IMG/VR virus record: IMGVR_UViG_3300013120_000185
Coordinates: 1-40,961 of that record
DNA: 40,961 nucleotides
Reading direction: 5' to 3' (one strand)
Source: a virus
The notes under the pieces are model-generated. The model was given only the letters and a program-made list of their open reading frames with translations, was not told the origin of the DNA and ran no database searches. Both the position numbers and the translations under genes were made by a program. How positions within the stretch are numbered: the first letter of the stretch is position 1; every line of letters starts with the position of its first letter. Below are positions 6,481-39,779 of the stretch, one piece after another.

Positions 6481-7334
6481 TTGACCAATTCAAAAACCAT
6501 CTGATAGCTAACGACTACAGTGGTACATATTACTACAATATCAAACCTTTCTTTAAGTTTTGTACAGAACAAGGGATTGATTACTTCAAGATAACTTATA
6601 ACGATATCAATAAGTATGTAATCTCCTGCAAAGATAAAGGACACGGCAAAGGCTTTATAAATAATCTGCTAAAAGCTATGCGATGTTTCTATAAGTTTTT
6701 AGTACTTACTCACCAAGCCGACCAAGGCATTCTGGATATAGCTAGAAGTTTTAAACTCCTGCAAGAAGACCACAAGATTCACGATTTCCTAACCAAAAAA
6801 GAACTGGATAAGCTAATCAGCGAAGGTATGACCTATGGAGTAAAGCGAATGTCTCCGATAAAGCTGAAGGCTTTGTTGTACTTTCTGTTCTATACAGGCT
6901 TACGCAAAGGAGAACTCTTGAACCTAAAACGTATAGATATAGATTTGAAGAAGCACCAAGCGATAGTGCGTACACCAACCAAGAACAAGAGGGAACGCAT
7001 AGTCATATACACTCGGAAAGTTTCGGCTCTGATGAGAACTTATTTCAAGCTGGAAGCAGAGGAGAATAATGCGTTCAATATGACGACCAATAAAATTCAA
7101 GACCTGATTCAAGATTTGAGCCAATATATGCCTGCTGGAAAACGTCTCACAGTGCATACATTCCGTCATAGTTTTGCTAACCTATTGGCATCTAACGAGA
7201 TAAGTATAAGAGTAGCTCAAAAACTATTGGGACACCAAAACCTCAATAGTACTATGATATATTACGACCCTGACATCACTATGGTACAAGACCTTTATAA
7301 CAAACGACTGGAAACCAAGAAAGGAGGGCAGTAA
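6477..7334 (+). CDS. Tyrosine recombinase (XerC/D- or integrase-like)
   Basis: A 285-residue protein with an N-terminal SAM-like core-binding domain (about 1-90) and a C-terminal catalytic domain with the full active-site set: R143 (TGLRKGELL), K169 (TPTKNKRER), H227 and R230 (HTFRHSFA), H253 (LLGHQN) and the nucleophile Y262 or Y263 (STMIYY). These enzymes cut and rejoin DNA through a 3'-phosphotyrosine. In a replication gene cluster it may resolve genome multimers rather than integrate; no attachment site, excisionase or repressor is visible nearby. It may be an XerC/D-type dimer-resolution or recombination enzyme (inference). Confidence 0.9.
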   Translation: MIDQFKNHLIANDYSGTYYYNIKPFFKFCTEQGIDYFKITYNDINKYVISCKDKGHGKGFINNLLKAMRCFYKFLVLTHQADQGILDIARSFKLLQEDHKIHDFLTKKELDKLISEGMTYGVKRMSPIKLKALLYFLFYTGLRKGELLNLKRIDIDLKKHQAIVRTPTKNKRERIVIYTRKVSALMRTYFKLEAEENNAFNMTTNKIQDLIQDLSQYMPAGKRLTVHTFRHSFANLLASNEISIRVAQKLLGHQNLNSTMIYYDPDITMVQDLYNKRLETKKGGQ

Positions 7335-7359
7335 ATAAGACAAGGCTAACTATTAACGG

Positions 7360-7551
7360 ATGGAAGGGGAGGTCATGCCGTGGCAAGACGAGGATATAAG
7401 AGTCTTAGCCAACTTTGTTGAAAGGTGGGCGAAAGAGAGGAACATAACGTTTATAAGGATAACAATCAATATCCGTGAAGACGTTAAGCATATTGACATT
7501 AACCAAGGCTATATAAGGAGAGAGATTTTTAAAGATTTAGATACCGATTAG
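7360..7551 (+). CDS. Hypothetical protein, start uncertain
   Basis: An ORF of up to 63 residues. ATG 7360 lacks a ribosome-binding site; ATG 7375 follows AGGGGAGG but at only two bases, which is tight. The product has a beta-alpha pattern (NITFIRITINIREDVKHIDI). It lies between the recombinase and the stepped hairpin. Function unknown. Confidence 0.45.
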   Translation: MEGEVMPWQDEDIRVLANFVERWAKERNITFIRITINIREDVKHIDINQGYIRREIFKDLDTD

Positions 7552-7630
7552 ACGCTGGGTGAATGACACAGGCGTTGTTTGGAAGTTAAAGGGTAGCAGA
7601 GACTACCTACTTTTGAGCAACGCTTTTTTT
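7552..7630 (+). terminator. Long stepped hairpin with T-tract, possibly an attenuator
   Basis: GCGTTG (7572-7577) pairs with CAACGC (7618-7623), GGAAGT (7581-7586) with ACTTTT (7609-7614, using G-T pairs) and GGGTAG (7591-7596) with CTACCT (7603-7608) around the loop CAGAGA; seven T follow at 7624-7630. This is a Rho-independent terminator-like structure just upstream of the sigma-like gene. Upstream ACGC (7552-7555) could instead pair with GCGT (7572-7575), giving a competing hairpin, so it may act as an attenuator or be a short RNA gene. The terminator call is well supported, the switching is inference. Confidence 0.7.
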
Positions 7631-7649
7631 ATTAGAGAGGGGTATCTAA

Positions 7650-8150
7650 ATGGATTACCTACAAATTTATAAGAAAGTGGAACCAAAAGTACGAATATAC
7701 TTCAGCCAGTTCGAAGATTACTATCGTGCTAATGCTCTTGATTATAAAGATTTAAGACAAGAAGTTATGTTAATGATTTGGAAACTGATAGAGGATAATC
7801 CTGATAAGAACGAATTAGATATGATAAAGTTTGCTACAAAAGCGACCAGAAACCTGTTGCTTAATCTTAAACGCAAGTCCGTGAAGCATTTGAACAAAAT
7901 TCCTATTGATGAAGTGTATGAAGGTAATCAGAGTTTTACTATCTACAATAATCCTACTGTTGTATTAGATATGCTAAGGAATAGAATATCCGACAAAGAG
8001 TATGCTGTTTTGAGCGGGATACTTTTGGAAGGAAAAACTCAAAATGAGATAGCTAAAAGTATAGGGCTTTCAAAAGCCAGAGTCGGACAGATTTATGCAC
8101 GACTGCTAAAAAAAGTAGAAAAATTTATAAAAAAGTCCTTTACTTTATAG
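7650..8150 (+). CDS. RNA polymerase sigma factor-like protein
   Basis: A 166-residue protein with a region-2-like segment at about 31-76 (DYKDLRQEVMLMIWKLI ... NLLLNLKRK) and a region-4 helix-turn-helix at about 118-157 (LLEGKTQNEIAKSIGLSKAR, then VGQIYARLLKKV). It lacks regions 1 and 3, like ECF/phage sigma factors. It should redirect host RNA polymerase to phage promoters. It sits just after the hairpin/T-tract, and the class B promoter-like element starts inside its 3' end, suggesting a regulatory link (inference). GAGAGGGGTATCTAA precedes the ATG. Confidence 0.8.
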   Translation: MDYLQIYKKVEPKVRIYFSQFEDYYRANALDYKDLRQEVMLMIWKLIEDNPDKNELDMIKFATKATRNLLLNLKRKSVKHLNKIPIDEVYEGNQSFTIYNNPTVVLDMLRNRISDKEYAVLSGILLEGKTQNEIAKSIGLSKARVGQIYARLLKKVEKFIKKSFTL

Positions 8151-8173
8151 GGTCAAAAAGGTAGATATATAAT
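8129..8173 (+). promoter_or_regulatory. Class B phage promoter-like element
   Basis: A-tract (8129-8134), GTCCTTTACTTT, then GTAG (8161-8164) running into ATATATAAT with TATAAT at 8168-8173. A near-identical element with the same 27-base distance from A-tract to GTAG occurs at 15820-15865. There is no canonical -35. It overlaps the last codons of the sigma-like gene and would start a transcript across the AT-rich spacer into the sliding clamp gene. Confidence 0.7.
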
Positions 8174-8196
8174 GGTGGTCATCCGTTGGTACAATA

Positions 8197-8313
8197 TATG
8201 TTATAAAGAAATACACAACGAAGTTCATTATCATATTATTACATAACGTATTAACATTGATAATGGATAATATATAGATGTAATATGTTATAACGAATTA
8301 ACGTTATAACGAA
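8197..8313. repeat. Iteron-like repeats in AT-rich spacer
   Basis: The 11-mer GTTATAACGAA occurs at 8287-8297 and 8303-8313, and GTTATAAAGAA at 8200-8210. The first and third share a longer context (ATATGTTATAAnGAA at 8197-8210 and 8284-8297). GTTATAAC is itself palindromic. The repeats lie in a 179-bp noncoding, very AT-rich stretch (8151-8329) right before the clamp gene. They could be an origin, a DNA-unwinding region or an operator; the sequence alone does not decide. Confidence 0.6.
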
Positions 8314-8329
8314 ATATGGGAGGCAGGGA

Positions 8330-9046
8330 ATGAGCAAAATGAAGGTAAGGAAGCAAAAACTGACCAATTTGTTCAATTTGATAGCAATGAAAGGAGCAAT
8401 AGAAAATAAAGAAGCTCTTCTGTCAGTCAGTAAAACTGAAATAATTACCAGAGTAGTTTCAGAGAACAATATCGTAGCTTGTAGAGCAGTACTGAAGGGC
8501 GAATTTGACGATTGGGGGGAAGTAGGGATAGACGATTTGATATTACTGAAGAACTTTATCAACTCGTTGAACGTAGAGGAAGTCGATATGGAAAAGCTGG
8601 AGAACAAGATAAATATCAAATCTGATAAAATTAAATTCTCTTGCGTTCTCCGTAATCCCAAGTACATAGTCAACACGTTTCCAGAGGACAAATATACGAC
8701 TTGGAAAGAAAAGAGTACTGGGAACGAATTTGTTGTATCCCAGAAAACCGTGAAGGAGATAATACAACATTTCAACACAATCTCACCAAATGAGCTGACA
8801 CTCAACGGCTCAGAAAAAACAATCAAACTAAAATTAGAGAATAACCAGAACGAACTCGTAGTAGACATTAGCATAGACCAAGAAGTGAAACCATTCAAGG
8901 TAAAACTCGCTCCGTTGTTCATAGATTTCTTGTCTACTGTAGAGGGAGATTTGACCGTGTCTGTAAAAGATGAAGGGTCTCCAGTATATGCTAAGGTCAA
9001 ACACGAAGACTGTGAGGTGGAGTATATAATAGCTCCACTCAATTAG
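8330..9046 (+). CDS. DNA polymerase sliding clamp (PCNA/gp45-like)
   Basis: A 238-residue protein with the length and strand pattern of a two-domain PCNA/gp45-type clamp. The ending VYAKVKHEDCEVEYIIAPLN resembles the last strands of PCNA (...y.iAP). Such clamps form trimeric rings tethering polymerase and other factors to DNA. The immediate downstream genes include a clamp-loader ATPase, which strongly supports the call. ATG 8330 follows GGGAGGCAGGGA. No pairwise motif is decisive, so structure comparison would be the proper test. Confidence 0.75.
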   Translation: MSKMKVRKQKLTNLFNLIAMKGAIENKEALLSVSKTEIITRVVSENNIVACRAVLKGEFDDWGEVGIDDLILLKNFINSLNVEEVDMEKLENKINIKSDKIKFSCVLRNPKYIVNTFPEDKYTTWKEKSTGNEFVVSQKTVKEIIQHFNTISPNELTLNGSEKTIKLKLENNQNELVVDISIDQEVKPFKVKLAPLFIDFLSTVEGDLTVSVKDEGSPVYAKVKHEDCEVEYIIAPLN

Positions 9047-9054
9047 GAGGAGCA

Positions 9055-9156
9055 ATGACACCAATAACACCCTATGAAATAATAGCACTCGGTGGGTGTT
9101 TAATATTTGGATTTATCATCGGAGTACTAATAGGGAGGTGGAGTAAAGGGGATTGA
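9055..9156 (+). CDS. Single-span membrane peptide
   Basis: A 33-residue ORF after TTAGGAGGAGCA. One hydrophobic segment (about residues 8-27) is followed by a short basic tail, RWSKGD. Probably an inner-membrane peptide; no family recognised. Confidence 0.5.
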   Translation: MTPITPYEIIALGGCLIFGFIIGVLIGRWSKGD

Positions 9157-11820: not shown

Positions 11821-11967
11821 ATGAATAATTTATGGGAAGGAATCGGAATAGCTCTCACAATATTAGCTCTGGCATTTTTTATGAGAAGTTGCGTAGCTGG
11901 AATCGAAGAAAGACCTTTGTTTGGGAAGGATGGAGCAATCATTAACGCAGGGGAGGTGGCTAAATGA
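11821..11967 (+). CDS. Single-span membrane protein, hypothetical
   Basis: A 48-residue ORF after ATAGGAGGAGAG. A hydrophobic segment at about residues 7-22 precedes a short polar tail; the Cys at 24 does not form a convincing lipobox. Its stop overlaps the methyltransferase-like start. Confidence 0.5.
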   Translation: MNNLWEGIGIALTILALAFFMRSCVAGIEERPLFGKDGAIINAGEVAK

Positions 11968-12587
11968 GAGAAATAATATGCACCAATGCGATACGTTGGC
12001 TAGAGGAACAACCAGATAACAGTTTGCCTTCCGCAGTTACAGGCATACCTGATACGCACACGATACAAAAAGATATGACTACAGCAGAGTATATGCAATT
12101 TATCCGAATTGCTTCTAGTCTTATTATGAAAAAAGTAAGACCCGACCAATACTGTATCTTTATACTGACCGACAGAAAAGGAGACGGAATCTGGATAGAT
12201 AAAGGACATCAGATTATTGATATGGCTTTAAGTCTTGATATGAAACAGTTATGGCATAAAATAATAGTCAACAAACAGTCCGTGAATTTTATTATGGCAA
12301 GCTATTCTCATTTCTTATGTTTTTCTAAGGCAGGAACTCCTGGCAAACCTACTCCTGACGTAATGGAGAGGGGAGATATCGTATATAGATATGCGACAGG
12401 ACAAATTCCTACAAGAATAGCTATTGAATTTTTAGCGGGAAAAACTGATACAGTTCTAGACCCGTTTGTTGGACAAGGAACTGTAGTAGCTATGGCTAAC
12501 GCTTACGGCATGAAAGGGATAGGTATAGATATAGACCCTGAACAATGCGAGAAAGCAAAATTACTGAAACTGGAGAAACCGATATGA
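11964..12587 (+). CDS. SAM-dependent methyltransferase-like protein (beta-class order)
   Basis: A 207-residue protein. The C-terminus carries an AdoMet-binding motif, VLDPFVGQGTVV (164-175) followed by GIGIDIDPEQC, as in N4/N6 amino-methyltransferases of permuted (beta) order. The N-terminal catalytic-loop position reads AVTGIPD (24-30) instead of the usual [DNS]PP[YF]. That resembles a TSLPD-type variant in poorly studied bacterial methyltransferase-like proteins (recollection). The substrate could be DNA, RNA or a small molecule. It overlaps the radical SAM gene by four bases, and GGGGAGGTGG precedes its start. Confidence 0.75.
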   Translation: MREIICTNAIRWLEEQPDNSLPSAVTGIPDTHTIQKDMTTAEYMQFIRIASSLIMKKVRPDQYCIFILTDRKGDGIWIDKGHQIIDMALSLDMKQLWHKIIVNKQSVNFIMASYSHFLCFSKAGTPGKPTPDVMERGDIVYRYATGQIPTRIAIEFLAGKTDTVLDPFVGQGTVVAMANAYGMKGIGIDIDPEQCEKAKLLKLEKPI

Positions 12588-13906
12588 AAAGTTACGGAAG
12601 TCCCAGAATAAGTAGCGAATTTAAGGATTGTAGTTTACCTCTAACCTTTGACCAGTACAGTAGATGCACGTTTGGTTGTCAATATTGTTTCGGTGTCCAG
12701 TTTAAGAAATGTAATCCTGCTGTAATTAAGTCCCCCGATTTGGGAGCAGTAAATGCTAAGTTTCTTAACGGAGTACTTAGAGGAGATAAACCAGACAACC
12801 CCTATTACAAGAACTTCTATAAGAATAGATTTGTTTTTCACTGGGGCGGACTAACCGAACCATTTTGTCATTTAGAAAAGAAGCTAGGTGTTGGATTAGA
12901 GGTAATGAAAACCTTGGCGGACTTGAAATATCCGACTCTCTTTTCTACCAAAGGAGTTTCTATGTTCCTTGATATGAAGGAATATAGAGACATGTTTGAG
13001 AAATGTAGGGAAAAGAAGACATTGGCTTTCCAGATATCTATCATAGTTTATGATGACCAGAAATCTCTGGAGATAGAACCGAATACTCCTAAAACTTCAG
13101 AACGATTAAAGGCGATGAAGACCTTATCAGATATGGGCTTTTACACTATCCTCAGATTGAGACCCTTTATTATAGGGCTTACAGACGTAGGCTTAGAACA
13201 GCTACTTATAGAATCAAAAAACGCTGGAGCGAAGGCTGTTTCTATGGAGTTTTTTGCTTTAGACGAGAGGGTAGTGCCTCAACTGACGAACCGCTTAAAA
13301 ACGATAAGTGAGTTGACTAATTTGGACATACAACCTTTCTATAAGAAGCTTTCCCCTAATGAAAGAGGAACGTATATGCGGTTGAGCCGAGACGTTAAGG
13401 AACATTTTATGAAAAGACTATATGTTAAGTGTAGAGAGCTAGGTTTGGTCATCAGTATATCCGACCCAGATTTTAAGGAACTAAATGATACAGGCTGTTG
13501 TTGCGGTTTACCAGAAGAATATCCCGCTAACCCAGAATTCACAAATTGGAGCAAAGGACAGCTAACGCACCATTTGAAAGAACTGCGAAAGAGATATTGG
13601 AATTCTAATGGAGACGACAAACTCCTGTATTTTGAGGATGTTAGAGCTGACGTTGCTAATAAGTGGATGGACGAATACGAATATTCTAGCGACAGTATCA
13701 AGTTTTGGCAAGCCGATTATAGCCGACTGAATACTGGTCATATCAGAGAATTTATCACTTCTTGGAACAGTCTCCGCAGTCCCGATAACCCGTATAATTA
13801 CTTCCATGGCAAACTCAAGCCTGTAGACGTGAAGAACAACAAAATAGTCTTTGAATATGTACCAAGCCCGTATGAATATCGCTGGAGAAAGGAAGGCATA
13901 TTGTGA
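12584..13906 (+). CDS. Spore-photoproduct-lyase-like radical SAM enzyme
   Basis: A 440-residue protein with a radical SAM cluster C28-x3-C32-x2-C35 (RCTFGCQYCF) and an overall layout like SplB-type proteins, with FHWGGLTEPF and FSTKG barrel segments. A CCCG cluster at about residue 305 could bind a second metal. The enzyme should cleave AdoMet to a deoxyadenosyl radical. SplB repairs spore photoproduct in DNA, but phage SPL-like proteins are mostly uncharacterised. It is translationally coupled to both the methyltransferase-like and thymidylate-synthase-like genes, which points to one pathway (inference). Confidence 0.8.
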   Translation: MKSYGSPRISSEFKDCSLPLTFDQYSRCTFGCQYCFGVQFKKCNPAVIKSPDLGAVNAKFLNGVLRGDKPDNPYYKNFYKNRFVFHWGGLTEPFCHLEKKLGVGLEVMKTLADLKYPTLFSTKGVSMFLDMKEYRDMFEKCREKKTLAFQISIIVYDDQKSLEIEPNTPKTSERLKAMKTLSDMGFYTILRLRPFIIGLTDVGLEQLLIESKNAGAKAVSMEFFALDERVVPQLTNRLKTISELTNLDIQPFYKKLSPNERGTYMRLSRDVKEHFMKRLYVKCRELGLVISISDPDFKELNDTGCCCGLPEEYPANPEFTNWSKGQLTHHLKELRKRYWNSNGDDKLLYFEDVRADVANKWMDEYEYSSDSIKFWQADYSRLNTGHIREFITSWNSLRSPDNPYNYFHGKLKPVDVKNNKIVFEYVPSPYEYRWRKEGIL

Positions 13907-15315
13907 GAACAATACAAGGGTGTATAGAATATAACACTCCTAATGACATGTACTTAGGAGTTTTGCAGGACTTTCTGGATAATGCGAAGGCAATATCTCG
14001 TAAAGGCAGATTATATCTGAGCTTCAAGCCTTACGTGTTCAGAGTTAAGAACTGCAGTGATACTATGATTACCTTACCTGGCTCAAACTATCACGACCCG
14101 ATTCCTTGGTTTTTCTGCGAGTTATTTGATTGGTTACATGGAGCAAGAGTAGCTGGCGGTAGGTCTGTAAGGTTTGATAAACACAGAAGAACAGTATATC
14201 CCAGAGCTAATGGGGAAGACGACTGGTCATATAAAACTGCTTTTGGAGCTACTGGTCAAGGTCAATTAGGTTGGGCTATGCGACATTTGAAACAGGACAG
14301 CACTTCTCGTAGGTGCGTAATATCTCCTTGGCAATGGGAACGAGATTTGGTACGATTTACAGCACGAATGGAAGAAGGACTCAATAGAGGCGAAGAATAT
14401 CAGAGATTACCTTGTATTGTGGGAATCCAATATTCAGCAGACGATACTCTGGAAGAAGGTAAAAAAGGTTTGAATACTATGATGATGCAAAGGGCTTTAG
14501 ACTTCACTGGAGCTGTCCATACTGACTTTTTCAGGGTAGCAGAATCAGCACATTGGCTCGCAACCCACAGTTACACTGGAGGTTACGCTGGACACTTCAC
14601 TTGTTTGGCTAACACTTGCGTAATAGAAAGCTATGGGGCACAAAGATTTAACGAATTTAAAAAGCTTATGGAATGGTGGAACAGTGATGAGCTTTCTAGG
14701 TCTATACTAAAGTATTATATTAAGACTAACCAGAGCCTCGACTCCCCCCAAACTGAGGGAGCACCTTCTCGTAAGGCTTACGAATGGTACGATACCCAGT
14801 GGAAAAATACTGAGCTGTGCATAAATAATGCAATCAAAAACCAGTGGAGACTCTTCTCAGAGCGGTTAGCCCAAGTAGAGTATCGTTACAACAGAGATTT
14901 CGCAAATCTGATGGCGTTATTCGAGTTCTTGCTGCTGGAAGAATTAGCTCCAGAGATTATTAAATACCACTGGGATGCTGAGCAGTGTGCTGAAGCGAGG
15001 AATCTTGAGCAAACGTTGGGTGAATATCCTCCGTTCTATTTCCTCAAACAGATACAAAATTGGATGCAATATTATGCAGGAGCAGAACTTACGAGAATAT
15101 TTGTCAAACGAAGAGATTGGCACAAGCTGGAAGAATTGTTCAATTTGACTGAAAATACCAAAAAACTGCAGAATTATATGCTTATGGACGCCAGCCGACT
15201 GCTTTCAAAGAAAGAAATGAGACAGATGAAGGGTATGAAACCTTTCCAAAGTTTTTATGTGATTTGGGAACAGATTTTCGATGCTGACAAAGTGACTAAA
15301 GGAGGATTAGTATGA
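13903..15315 (+). CDS. Thymidylate synthase superfamily protein, extended
   Basis: A 470-residue protein. Its first ~260 residues follow the thymidylate synthase order: FFCELFDWLHG, the paired phosphate-binding arginines in DSTSRRCVISPWQWERDL (136-137), and a probable nucleophile C171 in RLPCIVG (usual PPCH), followed by MMMQRALDFTGAVHTDFF (usual QRS.D..LG.P.N). The canonical H-x-Y near the end is not seen, and a ~200-residue C-terminal extension is unusual; TS is normally 260-320 residues. Members methylate or hydroxymethylate C5 of dUMP/dCMP. A hydroxymethylating or divergent function is plausible, supported by the coupled P-loop kinase downstream. Confidence 0.75.
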   Translation: MRTIQGCIEYNTPNDMYLGVLQDFLDNAKAISRKGRLYLSFKPYVFRVKNCSDTMITLPGSNYHDPIPWFFCELFDWLHGARVAGGRSVRFDKHRRTVYPRANGEDDWSYKTAFGATGQGQLGWAMRHLKQDSTSRRCVISPWQWERDLVRFTARMEEGLNRGEEYQRLPCIVGIQYSADDTLEEGKKGLNTMMMQRALDFTGAVHTDFFRVAESAHWLATHSYTGGYAGHFTCLANTCVIESYGAQRFNEFKKLMEWWNSDELSRSILKYYIKTNQSLDSPQTEGAPSRKAYEWYDTQWKNTELCINNAIKNQWRLFSERLAQVEYRYNRDFANLMALFEFLLLEELAPEIIKYHWDAEQCAEARNLEQTLGEYPPFYFLKQIQNWMQYYAGAELTRIFVKRRDWHKLEELFNLTENTKKLQNYMLMDASRLLSKKEMRQMKGMKPFQSFYVIWEQIFDADKVTKGGLV

Positions 15316-15821
15316 AAATTGTAATCGTAATAGGTCAAAGTGCTTCTGGTAAGTCTACTTATGTTAAACAATATTACTTCAAGGAAGGTTCAAGATTGGA
15401 GTATGAACCTATTAAACACACGATATGTGGAGCTATTTGTCTTTTAGGAGATTATTTAGAAGACAGAAGGTGCGTAGGTACTGATACTCTATCTTACAGT
15501 ATCATAGATACTCTCATACAATTCGTTAAAGACAGTAAAGACAGGTTTGAATTTATAGTAGCTGAAGGAGATAGAATTAACAACAAGAAATTCTTTGATG
15601 CGGTCAAAGAAATGGACGTACCTGTAGAGGTTTATGTTTTCAGTTGTTCCCTAAATGAGAGCATGCAGAGGTTGCGTGACCAAGAGTCTACGATAGGTGA
15701 AACTTTCGTGAAAACTACCAAGAGTAAGGCTTCTAATATGAAGCAATATGCTAAAAGATTGGGCTTTACCGTGCACGAAATCAACACAGGAAAAGAGGAA
15801 TCCAGCCTCTTAAATTTTTAA
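15312..15821 (+). CDS. P-loop kinase
   Basis: A 169-residue protein with Walker A GQSASGKST (8-16), a hydrophobic strand FIVAEGDRINN acting as Walker B-like, and VYVFSCSLNESMQRLRDQ as a lid region. It fits small (deoxy)nucleotide or polynucleotide kinases of phages. Coupled to the TS homologue (ATGA at 15312), it could phosphorylate the modified nucleotide or, as in thymidine-hypermodifying phages, a hydroxymethyluracil base in DNA. The substrate is not determinable here. Confidence 0.8.
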   Translation: MKIVIVIGQSASGKSTYVKQYYFKEGSRLEYEPIKHTICGAICLLGDYLEDRRCVGTDTLSYSIIDTLIQFVKDSKDRFEFIVAEGDRINNKKFFDAVKEMDVPVEVYVFSCSLNESMQRLRDQESTIGETFVKTTKSKASNMKQYAKRLGFTVHEINTGKEESSLLNF

Positions 15822-15865
15822 AAAAAGTACTTTACTTTCAGACCCCAAAAGGGTAGATATATAAC
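15820..15865 (+). promoter_or_regulatory. Class B phage promoter-like element, copy 2
   Basis: A-tract (15820-15826), GTACTTTACTTT, CAG, then GGGTAG (GTAG at 15853-15856) and ATATATAAC with TATAAC at 15860-15865. The spacing equals that of the copy at 8129-8173. It begins at the stop of the P-loop kinase gene and lies 14 bases before the next start, so it probably opens the transcript for 15879 onward. Confidence 0.7.
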
Positions 15866-21562: not shown

Positions 21563-21601
21563 ACACGTGTTTTGAAATAAACGCAGAAAATGGGGTTCAA
21601 A

Positions 21602-22078
21602 ATGAAAGTATATTTAGCTGGTTATATTCAAGGAACTAAGCTAGACGAATGTTTGGCTTGGAGAAGGAAGATTAGAGAACACTTTGACCACAACACCAAA
21701 TGGCAGGGAGAGATATCGTTCTTAGACCCTCTTAATGGCAAGAACTTTGGTAGTATTACTCCTGATGGATTGAAATCTGACATCCCTGGAAAAGCTCTGG
21801 TGCATAGAGACCACAAGCACGTTATGGAGAGCGACCTACTGATAGCTAATATGAGCACCTTTGGAGAGACAAGTCGTCCTATCACTGGAACTATCTACGA
21901 ATTAGCTTGGGCTTGGCAAGCAGAGAAACCTACTATCGTTATAACGGAAGAAGATAACTACAAATGTCATCCGTTCATTATAGATACAGCATCTATAATA
22001 GTATCTTCAGTAGAGGAGTTGTTAGAGAAGAAATATATTAACTATTTCTACAAAGGAGGAGTCAGTGCCGTATATTAA
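21602..22078 (+). CDS. Nucleoside 2-deoxyribosyltransferase-like protein
   Basis: A 158-residue protein of the PF05014 type: MKVYLAGYIQG opening, SDLLIANMSTFG with D78, and GTIYELAWAWQAEKPTI with the probable nucleophile E100. These enzymes move deoxyribose between bases, or hydrolyse nucleotides in the DNPH1 branch. ATG 21602 is used because it aligns with the family N-terminus; an in-frame ATG at 21590 has no better leader. It fits the nucleotide-salvage or modified-nucleotide theme of the window. Confidence 0.75.
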   Translation: MKVYLAGYIQGTKLDECLAWRRKIREHFDHNTKWQGEISFLDPLNGKNFGSITPDGLKSDIPGKALVHRDHKHVMESDLLIANMSTFGETSRPITGTIYELAWAWQAEKPTIVITEEDNYKCHPFIIDTASIIVSSVEELLEKKYINYFYKGGVSAVY

Positions 22079-34259: not shown

Positions 34260-34455
34260 CCCTTTAAACAAAGCCGAGAAAGAATGGTTCATGAATATTA
34301 ACTTCCAAGGTTTGGATGCTGTAGAAAAGTTGTGTCAAGAACCATACGAGAACTTAAAGAAAAAAGATTTACTAACTTTTGAAGTGTCTGATATAGCTAT
34401 TGTGAACAAACGTCCAGTAGTATATTTTAGGCTAAAGAAACTGAGAAAAAAATGA
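34243..34455 (+). CDS. Hypothetical protein
   Basis: A 70-residue protein preceded by GTAGGAGAGTGAGAA. N-terminal helix (LNKAEKEWFMNINFQGLDAVEKL) and a C-terminal hairpin (FEVSDIAIVNKRPVVYFRLKKL). No family recognised; its stop overlaps the glycosyltransferase start. Confidence 0.55.
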   Translation: MYNPFNPLNKAEKEWFMNINFQGLDAVEKLCQEPYENLKKKDLLTFEVSDIAIVNKRPVVYFRLKKLRKK

Positions 34456-35069
34456 ATAATTTTTATATCTCTACTTTCTATACAAAGGACTCTCCTTATA
34501 GTGAGGCAGTATTAGAATATCTACAAATGTCTTTACTCCATCTACCTTGTGCTATACATTTGATTAACAACGAGATAGAAGATTTAGGGAGTTGGTATAG
34601 GAACGTAGCTGAGAAACCTAGAGTAGTACTACAAATGTTGGAAGAGAATCCGAAGGAATGCTTAGTGTTCTTAGACGCTGATTGTACAGTTAATAAGTAT
34701 CCATATCTCTTCCATGAGATACCTGATGAATATGATTTAGCTTTTCATACTCTCAATTGGAATACTTGGTACGGATATACAGCTCTTAATCCAGTAACGG
34801 AACTTCTTACAGGTACTATGTTTTTCCGACCTAATGACAAAGTCAAACAATTATGTGTAGATTGGTATGAAGAAGCTAAAAGAACTAGTGAGTGGGAACA
34901 AAAAGTATTGGAACGAGTAATCAAACATCACGACGTAAAGGTATATCCTTTACCGATAGAATACTGTTACATGGCTACGAGACCAAGAGGAGAAGCTCCT
35001 TTAGTGAAATGTGACCCTGTAATCACGCATTATCAGGTAAGCAGGACAGAGAAAAGGAGGAAGAGATGA
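34452..35069 (+). CDS. GT-A-fold glycosyltransferase-like protein
   Basis: A 205-residue protein with a nucleotide-sugar transferase layout: an N-terminal beta strand (FYISTFYTKDSP), then VVLQMLEENPKECLVFLDADCTV containing the D-x-D metal motif (FLDADC), and LLTGTMFFRP near the acceptor side. Similar to putative nucleotide-diphospho-sugar transferases in phages. It would use an activated sugar; acceptor unknown (DNA base, host glycan or phage structure). Confidence 0.65.
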   Translation: MNNFYISTFYTKDSPYSEAVLEYLQMSLLHLPCAIHLINNEIEDLGSWYRNVAEKPRVVLQMLEENPKECLVFLDADCTVNKYPYLFHEIPDEYDLAFHTLNWNTWYGYTALNPVTELLTGTMFFRPNDKVKQLCVDWYEEAKRTSEWEQKVLERVIKHHDVKVYPLPIEYCYMATRPRGEAPLVKCDPVITHYQVSRTEKRRKR

Positions 35070-35305: not shown

Positions 35306-35979
35306 GGACTTTAGTTATAGGTGATATACACGGAGGATTCAAAGCTCTGTTGCAATGTATAGAAAGGTCAAAGTTTGACTTTGAAAAAGATAGATTGATA
35401 CATCTTGGAGATGTTTGTGACGGATGGACAGAAACCAAAGAGTGTATTGAATATCTGATGACGATTCCTAATCTTATAAATATTATAGGGAATCACGATA
35501 AATGGACATTAGAGTGGATGACAGAGCCTCAAAGGATAGAGTGGGTGACTCAAGGGGGTCATAATACTGTATCTTCTTATATTCCGAAGTCTCACGTAGA
35601 GTTTTTGAAGAACTCTCATCTGTGGTATTTGGAAGAGAAGACTAACCAATTATTCGTTCACGGGGGTATAGACCCTAACAAGAAGATGGAGAAACAAGAT
35701 TTAAACACTTGTTTATGGGACAGAGACCTTCTGTTTAACGCCAGAGCCAAACACAACCAGAAGCCCAACTACCAGTACGGAGGGTTTGCCGATATCTTTG
35801 TAGGACATACATCTACCAAACTGTTTAAGACAGAAGAACCCACCCACTACTGTAATGTATGGGATTTAGATACAGGAGGAGGTTGGGCTGGAGTTTTAAC
35901 TATAATGGATATAGAAACTAAACAGTGGTGGCAGTCTGACCCTGTGTATACTCTCTATCCAGATGTGAGGGGAAGATGA
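35302..35979 (+). CDS. Lambda-type protein phosphatase-like metalloenzyme
   Basis: A 225-residue protein with D8-x-H10-G (GDIHGG), GDVCDGW (D37), GNHDKW (N64, H65), LFVHGG and GHTSTKLF. This is the PPP-family order of bacteriophage lambda phosphatase (Ser/Thr/Tyr phosphatase) or symmetrical diadenosine tetraphosphatase. GTG start at 35302, overlapping the previous stop. In this phage it may reverse phosphorylation of proteins or of a pathway intermediate (inference). Third metallophosphatase of the window. Confidence 0.82.
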   Translation: MRTLVIGDIHGGFKALLQCIERSKFDFEKDRLIHLGDVCDGWTETKECIEYLMTIPNLINIIGNHDKWTLEWMTEPQRIEWVTQGGHNTVSSYIPKSHVEFLKNSHLWYLEEKTNQLFVHGGIDPNKKMEKQDLNTCLWDRDLLFNARAKHNQKPNYQYGGFADIFVGHTSTKLFKTEEPTHYCNVWDLDTGGGWAGVLTIMDIETKQWWQSDPVYTLYPDVRGR

Positions 35980-36770
35980 TAAACGGACTTACAACAGTAA
36001 ACATAGAGCTGACTAGCATGTGTAATAAGTCTTGCCACATGTGCGGTAGAAGGAAGATAGACCGAGATTATCCAGAGATAAAGCTCAAGTACGGTCATAT
36101 GGATTTAAAATTGGCACTACGGATTAAGAAACAAATACCGAAAGGTATAGTTATCCAATATCATAACAACGGAGAACCTTTGTTATATCCTCATTTAAGA
36201 GAGGTGTTAGAGTATAGAAACGATGACCACGTCAATTGTATGGACACTAACGGAAAGCTACTCGTACAAAAAGCCGATGAGATTATAGGTAATTTAGATA
36301 CTCTTACTGTCTCTGTTATAGAGAGAGACCCAGAAGGTGAAGAGCAATATCAGATAGTTAAGCAATTCCTTGCAAAGAAAGGTAACAGAAAACCAGGAAT
36401 GATTTATAGAGTATTAGGTGAAGTTGAAGATGTGAAACGCTGGGAAGCTTTTCCAGGAATTATAGCTAAACGAATGTTACATAGTCCTATGGGGAGTTTC
36501 AATTATAAGAAAGAACCTGTAGTGCCAGAGATAGGGATATGTTTAGACTTTCTCAACCATTTAGTCATTAGACACGACGGGAAAGTAAGTTGTTGCGTAA
36601 GATTCGACCCGAAAGACGAAGGGATAATAGGAGATGTAAATAAAGAAACGTTAGAACAAATATGGAATGGTAGGAAAAGAAATCGTCGCTTCTTGTTTCA
36701 TCTTGCAGGACATAGAGAACAGTTGCCGTTATGCGACAAATGCGAATTTTGGGGGATACCTAAAGGATAG
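35976..36770 (+). CDS. Radical SAM/SPASM-domain protein
   Basis: A 264-residue protein with an N-terminal radical SAM cluster C16-x3-C20-x2-C23 (CNKSCHMC), barrel segments VIQYHNNGEPLLYP and NCMDTNGKLL, and a C-terminal SPASM-like region (ICLDFLNHLVIRHDGKVSCC, ... LPLCDKCEFWG). Such enzymes modify peptides, sugars or cofactors using AdoMet radicals and an auxiliary iron-sulfur cluster. Coupled to the phosphatase upstream. The substrate is not clear; no obvious precursor peptide is seen next to it. Confidence 0.8.
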   Translation: MINGLTTVNIELTSMCNKSCHMCGRRKIDRDYPEIKLKYGHMDLKLALRIKKQIPKGIVIQYHNNGEPLLYPHLREVLEYRNDDHVNCMDTNGKLLVQKADEIIGNLDTLTVSVIERDPEGEEQYQIVKQFLAKKGNRKPGMIYRVLGEVEDVKRWEAFPGIIAKRMLHSPMGSFNYKKEPVVPEIGICLDFLNHLVIRHDGKVSCCVRFDPKDEGIIGDVNKETLEQIWNGRKRNRRFLFHLAGHREQLPLCDKCEFWGIPKG

Positions 36771-37323: not shown

Positions 37324-37506
37324 ATGGGAAGACAAATACCTAGAAGCCAAGCCATAGGGAGGCATAGGTCTCCCAAAACTCTGAAAACTATTACTTGTCC
37401 TAGCTGTGACGGAGCAGGAAAGGATTTAGAAACCAAAGAAGTGTGTCCTGACTGTCGTGGCAAAGGTAAACTGGAGAATGTAACTGTGAGAGAGGTAGGA
37501 CAATGA
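37324..37506 (+). CDS. DnaJ-type zinc-finger protein
   Basis: A 60-residue protein with two CxxCxGxG-like units: CPSCDGAGK and CPDCRGKGK, the pattern of the DnaJ central zinc domain in shortened form. ATG 37324 follows TTAATAGGAGATTAAA. It could bind unfolded protein or act as a metal-binding adaptor. Its stop overlaps the glycosyltransferase start. Confidence 0.6.
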   Translation: MGRQIPRSQAIGRHRSPKTLKTITCPSCDGAGKDLETKEVCPDCRGKGKLENVTVREVGQ

Positions 37507-38354
37507 GCGATATTCAAGTAAGTTTAGTAGCAAGTGCCAATAGACCCTTAGTACAAGGTAATTTCAGTAATTGGGTAAGATTTTATAACTCTCTCTTAGG
37601 TAATAGAATCAAATGGGAAGTAATTTTTGTAGGAGATACTCCTGCTCCATATACGTTTGCTCCTAGAAACTTTACTTGGATTAAAGCTACAGTTAAACCA
37701 GCCCAGTGCTACGAGATAGGATTCAGAGCAGCAAAGGGAGAACTTATCCACTGGACAGCAGACGATGCAGACTATCACCACCCTACTAGAAATTGTCCTA
37801 ATGCTATAGGTATAGCTTACGAACATTGGAAGAAGATGGAAGCTATGTACGGCAATAAGAAAGACTCCGTAGTAGCTATGAGACCCATAGAAGACGGGGG
37901 AGATGTGTGGAGTTTCCACCACTATTTCGGGGGGTGGGAACATACTCCTGTAATGGCTCCATTTGGATTGGTACACAGAGAGAAGTTTGCCGAGCTTGGG
38001 GGATATGATAGCAGATTTGTAAGTGGGCAGAGTGAGAACGACGTAGTAATGAGATTCTTAGAGATAGGGGGGCATGTAGAGGTCTGTATGGAAGCTTTCT
38101 TATATGTACACCACAGACAAGTACATCCGAGAACTCCTGATGGTAGGAAAGAAGTTAATTTGTTTAGGGAGTGGTACAACACTGACCGTATGGTTTTAGA
38201 AAACCTCTGGATACCTGCAGGATACGGGAACTACGAAAAGGATAATAAGAACGTGGAGATATCTAAGACTAGGTTATCTCCAGTGCAACGCTTTGAAGAC
38301 AGAGACGATATCTGTACAGTAACTCAAGGAGAATATAAAGGGAGATGGGGATAA
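37503..38354 (+). CDS. Family 2-like glycosyltransferase
   Basis: A 283-residue protein with GT-A fold: IQVSLVASANRP opening, KGELIHWTADDADY with the metal-binding D-D-x-D, FGLVHREKFAELGGYDSRF, and SENDVVMRF (acidic catalytic region). It should transfer a sugar from a nucleotide donor. Second sugar-transferase-like gene in this block. Acceptor unknown. Overlaps the next gene by 10 bases. Confidence 0.8.
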   Translation: MSDIQVSLVASANRPLVQGNFSNWVRFYNSLLGNRIKWEVIFVGDTPAPYTFAPRNFTWIKATVKPAQCYEIGFRAAKGELIHWTADDADYHHPTRNCPNAIGIAYEHWKKMEAMYGNKKDSVVAMRPIEDGGDVWSFHHYFGGWEHTPVMAPFGLVHREKFAELGGYDSRFVSGQSENDVVMRFLEIGGHVEVCMEAFLYVHHRQVHPRTPDGRKEVNLFREWYNTDRMVLENLWIPAGYGNYEKDNKNVEISKTRLSPVQRFEDRDDICTVTQGEYKGRWG

Positions 38355-38632
38355 GAAAGAAGTGCCCAAACTATCCGTGTCATTCGCCTGCATTTGCATT
38401 AGAGGACTGTACCTTTTGTTACTGTCCTTTATATCCGTGTAAGGATACTACGTTAGGCAATTGGAGCTACAACATAAATGGTAAGGGAAGACTAAAAAAA
38501 CGAGTATGGGATTGTTCAGGTTGTGATGTAGTTCATGGTCAAACGTTTGTAAAAATGGTGAAGGAGATGGTCAATGAAATCAAAAATCATCCTAAAAAAA
38601 CTAGAAAAGTACGAAGCAAGAGGCATGCATAG
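38345..38632 (+). CDS. Cysteine-rich small domain protein
   Basis: A 95-residue protein with CPNYPCH, LEDCTFCYCPLYPC and VWDCSGCDVVH, matching the Cys-rich small domain family (PF04071 type), probably metal-binding, known in archaea and bacteria beside cobalamin- or sugar-related genes but of unknown function. A basic tail (KKTRKVRSKRH) overlaps the aminotransferase start by 59 bases. Confidence 0.75.
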   Translation: MGIRKKCPNYPCHSPAFALEDCTFCYCPLYPCKDTTLGNWSYNINGKGRLKKRVWDCSGCDVVHGQTFVKMVKEMVNEIKNHPKKTRKVRSKRHA

Positions 38633-39779
38633 GCAATTGCCTGTGGTATGGAAATCAGCACATGGTAGTCAAGTACTTGATGTAGATAATAAGATGTATA
38701 TTGATTTCACTAGTGGTATCTTTGTAACTAACGTGGGGCATGGCTTAACTAGAGAAGCTGTGAAAGACCAAGCCGACCAGCTGATGTATACTTATACTTT
38801 CCCTACTCTTATACGAGCATTATTAGTTGAGACGTTAGTTCAAATGACTCCTCCGTTTTGTGAGAAAGTATTCTTACTGTCTTCAGGTTCAGAAGCGGTA
38901 GAGTGTGCTGGTAAGTTAATGAGAATGAACGCACGTAATCGTTATCGAGACGTGATAGTTTCAATCAAAGGAGCTATGCATGGGAAGACTATGTTTGCCG
39001 AAAAACTGGCGGGAGATAAGGGGGATAATAGCTGGGCTGGGACTGGCGACCCTAGTATTTATCATCTACCTTTTCCTGACGGTAGCAGTACCTTTGAAGA
39101 AGATATGGCACTTATTCTTCAGAAGAGGGGAGCACAAGACATAGCAGGATTTCTATTAGAAAGCTATCAAGGTTGGAGCGGAAGGTTTATGAACAAGAAA
39201 TATATACAACGGTTAGCTAAATTTGCTCACAAACACGCTATCCCGTTATGTTTTGATGAGGTACAAGGAGGGTTTGGTAGGACTGGATATCTATTCGCTT
39301 ATGAACGCTACGAAGTAGAACCCGATTTGATAGTCGTAGGAAAAGGACTGGGAAATGGTATGCCTATCTCTGCTGTTCTGGGCAGAAAATCTCTTCTTGA
39401 TATCCCCTACGACCTATCCTCAACCTACTCTGGTAATCCTATGTCATGCATGGCAGCATTAGAAACTCTAACTATTTTAGAACAAGACTCTTTAGTAAAA
39501 AATGCCTATAAACTCCACAAGGTTATGCAGAAACGGGTAAAACAAATAGCAGATAAGAGTAAACATATCACCGAGATAAATATAGCTGGGTTGTTAGCGG
39601 GAATACTTTTTACCGATAGGAAGAAAGCTACCAAAGTTTGTGATTTAGCCAGACGTATGGGGCTTCTTTTAGTCTTTACAGATAGAGAATCCGTAAAGCT
39701 TGGACCACCGTTGTGTATAACTAAGCAAGAGTTACTCCAAGGGCTAGATATATTAGAAAGGGCGGTGAGAAAGATATGA
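38574..39779 (+). CDS. Class III PLP aminotransferase
   Basis: A 401-residue protein with the acetylornithine/GABA-aminotransferase layout: SSGSEAVECAGKLMR near 103-117, HGKTM near 136, the PLP-pairing D228 (LCFDEVQGGFGRTG) and the Schiff-base lysine K257 (IVVGKGLGNGMP), then TYSGNPMSCMAALETL. It moves an amino group, probably between an omega-amino or keto compound and glutamate/alpha-ketoglutarate. Rare in phages; with glycosyltransferases and radical SAM enzymes nearby it may make an amino sugar or an amine attached to a base. AAGGAGATGGTCA precedes the ATG. Confidence 0.88.
   Translation: MKSKIILKKLEKYEARGMHRQLPVVWKSAHGSQVLDVDNKMYIDFTSGIFVTNVGHGLTREAVKDQADQLMYTYTFPTLIRALLVETLVQMTPPFCEKVFLLSSGSEAVECAGKLMRMNARNRYRDVIVSIKGAMHGKTMFAEKLAGDKGDNSWAGTGDPSIYHLPFPDGSSTFEEDMALILQKRGAQDIAGFLLESYQGWSGRFMNKKYIQRLAKFAHKHAIPLCFDEVQGGFGRTGYLFAYERYEVEPDLIVVGKGLGNGMPISAVLGRKSLLDIPYDLSSTYSGNPMSCMAALETLTILEQDSLVKNAYKLHKVMQKRVKQIADKSKHITEINIAGLLAGILFTDRKKATKVCDLARRMGLLLVFTDRESVKLGPPLCITKQELLQGLDILERAVRKI

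Follow-up and report, generated by a model that had tools for sequence, protein, structure and literature searches.

The DNA analyzed here (hereafter, the window) is a 40,961-nt viral record, IMG/VR IMGVR_UViG_3300013120_000185, which has no end repeats and is a fragment; because of this, genes absent from the window may lie elsewhere in the phage genome. A block of four plus-strand genes at 11,964–15,821 had been singled out in an original prediction made from the sequence alone, and both its coordinates and its junctions were verified: successive ORFs share exactly 4 nt (ATGA, GTGA and ATGA). The genes code for an amino-methyltransferase-like protein (P0001, 207 aa, 11,964–12,587), a PA0069-like radical SAM enzyme (P0002, 440 aa, 12,584–13,906), a thymidylate-synthase-like protein with a GTG start (TSL or P0003, 470 aa, 13,903–15,315) and a P-loop kinase (P0004, 169 aa, 15,312–15,821). 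The start of the methyltransferase-like gene also overlaps, by an ATGA, a plus-strand ORF whose translation is a 48-aa membrane peptide (11,821–11,967). Because of this 4-nt overlap, the coupled unit may begin before position 11,964, with the membrane-peptide ORF as its possible first gene. A terminator-like stem-loop lies close to the 3′ end of the kinase gene (15,793–15,811, plus strand), which is weak evidence when taken alone, as four such stems were found in the region versus 2.9 expected. The promoter-like element TTTACTTTCAGACCCCAAAAGGGTAGATATATAAC lies downstream of both the block and the stem (15,831–15,865, plus strand) and has a second copy at 8139–8173; two copies versus 0.04 expected (19-mer, no more than 3 mismatches) agree with the promoter element that had been predicted to close the block.

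A second viral contig carries an identical block. DNA-level searches of isolate phages gave no match to it, and no isolate phage with the same gene order was found; the search for this order in other phages, which the original prediction had proposed, returned one phage only, represented by the two contigs. Single-protein scans of viral contigs with TSL and the radical SAM enzyme also returned only the identical contig, and distant relatives were found with custom degenerate motifs in viral contigs.

Radical SAM enzyme, kinase and methyltransferase-like protein

P0002 possesses the cluster motif CTFGCQYC (Cys28, Cys32 and Cys35), which places it in the radical SAM superfamily. CxxxCxxC was present in 79 of 81 P0002 homologs, and six Cys residues (Cys16, 28, 32, 35, 306 and 307) were conserved in nearly all relatives examined. 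The enzyme had been described as SPL-like, which holds at the superfamily level only: the closest models were rSAM_PA0069/Rv2578c (3.7e-16), and the Pfam SPL family (PF20903) did not match P0002 and gave weak matches in two relatives only (0.0014 at best), arguing against membership in the SPL family. Structure prediction, suggested as a check of the SPL-like assignment, yielded a medium-quality model (pLDDT 66) with a partial barrel; radical SAM enzymes were among its top fold matches, but these were only generic radical SAM enzymes together with other barrels. Profile comparison with gp53 of Pseudomonas phage M6 gave hhalign 96% and an E value of 3e-9. P0002 was also considered as the M6 gp53 ortholog and rejected: the proteins are related, yet one viral contig, L149, carries both types as separate genes.

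P0004 matched PF18751 (Ploopntkinase3) with 2.4e-8 and 34.2 bits, above the cutoff of 27, which identifies it as a member of this family and confirms the predicted P-loop kinase. It contains GxY...GTD and EGDR motifs, of which G-x-Y, G-x-D and EG are common to HMUDK, and belongs to phrog_800, the same PHROG as the M6 kinase gp54. Assignment as a true HMUDK (5-hmdU DNA kinase, PF18748) was rejected, since P0004 had no match to this family and HMUDKs formed a separate clade (support 100/100). A sister kinase with GTDxxSY and EGDR motifs was observed in ∼72 pelagiphage-type loci (L024–L102; the Melnitz locus is L007:7557–8090) that lacked radical SAM genes and ADDT, the amino acid:DNA transferase of thymidine hypermodification. 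Because a C5-cytosine methyltransferase was nearby in 39 of these 72 loci, the sister kinase may act on modified cytosine.

The methyltransferase-like description of P0001 was supported in part. Its match to PF01555 (N6_N4_Mtase) was well above the cutoff (4.5e-11, 43.6 bits versus 26.7) and covered residues 154–199 only, and motif I of N4/N6 amino-methyltransferases was found as DPFVGQGT at the C-terminal end. However, the catalytic motif IV, [DNS]PP[YFW], was absent, with TGIPD at that position. A full-length homolog, gp12 of halovirus HCTV-2 (31% identity over 99%), has SLPD at the same place. The HCTV-2 homolog is located directly 3′ of a ParB/methyltransferase fusion gene (L006:3554–5782).

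TSL and the ADDT position

TSL matched the PHROG thymidylate synthase (TS) family with 7e-8 and Pfam Thymidylat_synt (PF00303) with 4e-4 and 20.1 bits, the latter below the curated cutoff of 24.3. Comparison with a profile of seven phage TSs gave hhalign 86% (E 5e-6), versus 0.2% for the ADDT control and 0.3% for the HMUDK_hel control, values that ruled out TSL as a distant member of either control family. By these sequence comparisons, TSL is a remote TS homolog. Standalone TSLs of the window type were found in one phage (two contigs), along with five fusion homologs; a relaxed TSL motif search and a scan of genome contigs added only unrelated matches.

Active-site residues were read from a joint alignment of five TSLs and the seven phage TSs, which is less certain near positions 58, 169–177 and H-x-Y than in the Cys and Arg columns. 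The equivalents of the catalytic Cys146 and of Arg166 (Cys171 and Arg197 in the window TSL) were kept in all five TSLs, and all five have Asp in place of Asn177 (Asp208 in the window TSL). Glu58 was missing in the four TSLs covering this position; in the window TSL, a Glu lies one column off, and its absence from position 58 therefore depends on the alignment. Equivalents of H207-x-Y209 were absent from all five TSLs, as the original prediction had noticed; it had added that the reaction may be new, and the reaction is indeed probably not the usual TS one. The Arg-Arg pair of the nucleotide-phosphate site was lost in the fusion TSLs and kept in the window TSL, for which a mononucleotide substrate is therefore possible. 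Asp at position 177 is known to redirect TS to cytosine and is overrepresented in contigs of modified DNA (PMC8670742), so that a nucleotide-level, cytosine-directed role is possible for the window TSL. The tail of ∼200 aa aligned weakly to the same region in other TSLs and matched no known domain; the AlphaFold model of TSL had a pLDDT of 37.7, too low to use.

Comparison of gene neighborhoods placed TSL at a position otherwise held by ADDT. Contig G001 (L049) shares with the window, in the same order, a clamp loader, two small genes, the radical SAM enzyme (50% identity) and the kinase; the stretch separating the latter two genes encodes an FkbM methyltransferase and ADDT (PF18724, 1.7e-15) and also holds two small ORFs. 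In L149, where the radical SAM enzyme is 60% identical to P0002 and the upstream genes are as in the window, ADDT is directly 5′ of the kinase (a weaker PF18724 match, 5e-5). ADDT was present in six records with the cassette kinase, and no PF18724 match was found in the window or in two TSL-fusion records. The window being a fragment, an ADDT or a true hydroxymethylase elsewhere in the genome is possible, which, like the restriction of standalone TSLs to one phage, weighs against the preferred explanation.

A similar exchange was observed in fusion proteins. In Bacillus phages Goe26 and SBSphiC and in IMG/VR phages, TSL was fused to an SPL-like domain without CxxxCxxC, and in Lysinibacillus phage LysYB1, ADDT was fused to the same cluster-less domain (44% identity). 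All inspected fusion genes had HMUDK and HMUDK_hel as neighbors, and a separate canonical Asn177 TS was found near the fusion genes wherever the record covers the region. The cluster-less SPL-like domain is probably a DNA-binding module and, because it is fused to either TSL or ADDT, TSL is suggested to work on DNA. Judged by gene order and fusions, TSL occupies the ADDT position in the window, and the same exchange took place independently in SPO1-like phages. Given this position, the loss of Glu58 and H-x-Y and the coexistence with a canonical TS in SPO1-like phages, the most likely role of TSL is in the transfer step on DNA and not that of a hydroxymethyl-nucleotide synthase.

Distribution of the radical SAM/kinase cassette

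Relatives of P0002 were encoded in 260 stretches of the scanned viral contigs, of which the best 80 were examined. TAGT glycosyltransferase was detected in 22 of these 80 loci, ADDT in 19 and a kinase in 18, counts that include related contigs, and so are not independent events, and that come mostly from fragmentary records. TAGT was located within 60 nt of the radical SAM gene in 11 loci and was confirmed by Pfam in three. In contrast, neither TAGT nor ADDT was found in 72 background loci chosen by the kinase motif alone. Approximately 35 of the 80 loci had no TAGT, kinase, ADDT or TSL nearby, which counts against our preferred explanation. The radical SAM/kinase pair is part of a widespread, apparently undescribed cassette, often with ADDT.

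Several other genes were observed around these loci. Among the same best 80 of 260 stretches, ParB-like genes were near the radical SAM gene in 38 and SPASM radical SAM genes in ∼21. The window also has a second radical SAM gene, of the SPASM type (35,976–36,770; SPASM, 4.5e-11), and class III aminotransferase and glycosyltransferase-like genes (38,574–39,779, 34,452–35,069 and 37,503–38,354, the last assigned by reading the sequence), which may belong to a sugar pathway serving to decorate DNA or a surface. A nucleoside 2-deoxyribosyltransferase-like protein, just under the Pfam cutoff, is encoded at 21,590–22,078. In L149, the M6 gp53-type radical SAM gene (7296–9098) holds an intein (Intein_splicing, 7e-13), and the window-type gene of L178 (4779–7227) seems to be split as well, possibly again by an intein.

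L149 carries the window-type radical SAM enzyme along with an M6 gp53 homolog (1.9e-85), a gp52-like PLP enzyme, ADDT and the kinase; its gene set resembles that of M6, lacks TS and has the window-type enzyme in addition. ThyA was absent from all 21 records with the window-type radical SAM enzyme (17 records and G001–G004). ThyX was absent from the L149 record and from G001–G004 and present in 7 of the 17 records, where it is a possible alternative source of the hydroxymethyl group and counts against the radical SAM enzyme as the opening step. One of these phages, G004 (L141/L142), is complete, as judged by a 127-bp terminal repeat, with a genome of 35.7 kb. Its cassette has the order ParB-kinase-ADDT-GNAT-radical SAM and adjoins the terminase genes; no ThyA, ThyX or Tet/JBP was detected in this phage, the Tet/JBP search having no positive-control match. 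In the opposite direction, the window-type radical SAM enzyme was missing from eight records of other phages of the hypermodification type, three of which gave only weak matches, to M6 gp53-type paralogs. This complementary pattern, with no ThyA beside this radical SAM enzyme and none of the enzyme in other hypermodifiers, suggests, without proving, that the enzyme supplies a reactive handle on thymine itself.

Proposed pathway, alternatives and known systems

The original prediction that the block makes or installs a modified pyrimidine is very probably correct, because the radical SAM enzyme and the kinase recur with ADDT, a defining hypermodification enzyme, in several phages, some of them in synteny with the window. 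Thymine hypermodification is very likely the role of the block. That it is a cassette for hypermodifying thymine in DNA with TSL in the transfer step is the reading toward which we lean, if modestly; its exact steps are inferred as follows. The radical SAM enzyme would functionalize the C5-methyl group of thymine in DNA without oxygen, producing a hydroxymethyl or equivalent handle; SPL chemistry runs via a thymine C5-methylene radical. This opening step is plausible, if slightly more doubtful than not, the alternative being a later rearrangement by the enzyme, as is held for gp53 of M6. The kinase, to judge from its homology, would then quite probably phosphorylate the handle. TSL could next carry out the transfer: its Cys would attack C6, the phosphate would leave and a nucleophile would add to the exocyclic methylene. 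This step, which might equally well hold or fail, would be thymidylate-synthase chemistry turned on DNA, as TS chemistry and the ADDT position suggest. Finally, P0001 might tailor or target the product, possibly by methyl transfer, although we consider this role doubtful. More generally, and only tentatively, the window-type radical SAM enzyme could be an oxygen-independent opener that replaces TS-type hydroxymethylases or Tet/JBP, its handle being used by TAGT, by kinase and ADDT or, in the window, by kinase and a TS fold turned DNA-base transferase.

The original prediction, drawing on phages in which a TS homolog makes hydroxymethyl-dUMP, had pointed to TSL as the source of the hydroxymethyl nucleotide. 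As a hydroxymethylase, TSL would make 5-hydroxymethyl-dUMP (or, with Asp177, 5-hydroxymethyl-dCMP), which would be polymerized before phosphorylation and further conversion by the radical SAM enzyme. TS homology with retention of the catalytic Cys, Arg-Arg and Arg197 would fit such an activity, as would the lack of another TS in the window fragment and the association of Asp177, a mark of cytosine-acting TS homologs, with modified DNA (PMC8670742). We nevertheless regard it as unlikely: a separate Asn177 TS adjoins TSL in SPO1-like phages, Glu58 and H-x-Y are missing (as is Arg-Arg in the fusions), syntenic relatives have the cassette and no ThyA was found in them, and TSL occupies the ADDT position. 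Asp177 also bears on the possibility that the cassette modifies cytosine, in which case TSL would target cytosine and the kinase 5-hydroxymethylcytosine; the pelagiphage sisters of the kinase, often located near a C5-methyltransferase, may do the same. Modification of cytosine is quite improbable, as C5-methyltransferase genes were detected in a single one of the 80 radical SAM loci (best 80 of 260) and not in the window block, and ADDT partners are known for thymidine.

A further alternative competes with the opening step only and leaves the TSL step as it is: the radical SAM enzyme would act late, as in M6, rearranging an amino acid attached to thymine, with the hydroxymethyl group coming from a ThyX, TS or dioxygenase outside the fragment. 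In the thymidine-hypermodifying phages on which the original prediction drew, the radical SAM step is likewise a later one. Profile similarity to gp53 and ThyX in 7 of 17 records argue for this order, which is, on balance, rather unlikely because L149 has both a gp53 homolog and the window-type enzyme, probably with different jobs, because in 22 loci (best 80 of 260) the latter has TAGT nearby and no detected ADDT, and because neither ThyA nor ThyX was detected in the complete G004, nor, in a search without a positive-control match, Tet/JBP. A later position is thus not necessary, and the unusual gene order that had been pointed out was borne out by the lack of isolate matches. Finally, the genes could be salvage or repair genes adjacent by chance, with no DNA-modification cassette; the broad radical SAM group does include the DNA repair enzyme SPL, and the window has the deoxyribosyltransferase-like gene elsewhere, but the 4-nt overlaps and the repeated occurrence, on many contigs, together with ADDT, kinase or TAGT make this very improbable.

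If, as we prefer, TSL replaces ADDT, the TS fold has switched its substrate from nucleotide precursors to the DNA polymer, with exocyclic-methylene chemistry attaching new groups to bases. Should the pathway start with the radical SAM enzyme, thymine in phage DNA would be oxidized without oxygen, a reaction that, to our knowledge, has so far been credited to dioxygenases or precursor synthesis. Given the 260 viral stretches with P0002 relatives, such a type of DNA modification, so far undescribed, could be common.

Among known systems, the M6 cluster (gp51–gp58) is similar to the window in having a phrog_800 kinase, an SPL-superfamily radical SAM enzyme and a base-transfer step, and ADDT, gp52- and gp53-type genes of the M6 type are located at the window's locus in L149. 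In M6, gp53 is held to act late, rearranging the amino acid on thymine. M6 differs in having ADDT, a canonical hydroxymethylase-type TS and HMUDK_hel, whereas the window has TSL for ADDT and a radical SAM enzyme of another clade. SplB, the spore photoproduct lyase (SPL), which acts on a thymine lesion in DNA, belongs to the same broad radical SAM group as P0002 and differs in its Pfam family. TAGT systems (PF20691, TET-associated glycosyltransferase) resemble the cassette in that TAGT is often near this radical SAM enzyme, but TAGT is missing from the window block. The closest isolate-phage homolog of TSL (E 2e-8) is that of Goe26/SBSphiC, beside a 5-hmdU DNA kinase; there, TSL is fused to the cluster-less domain, the kinase is HMUDK and not of the PF18751 type, and a canonical TS is separate. 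LysYB1 has the C-terminal SPL-like domain and neighbors of Goe26, with ADDT in the place taken by TSL in Goe26 and the window. The cassette of Rhodococcus phage Tonitrus consists of ParB, a Tet/JBP-like protein, aGPT-Pplase2 and a 5-hmU DNA kinase (PMC11955845). Its ParB, transferase and kinase resemble the G004 cassette; oxidation is by the Tet/JBP-like protein in Tonitrus, whereas G004 has the radical SAM enzyme, a parallel to this enzyme as the opener.
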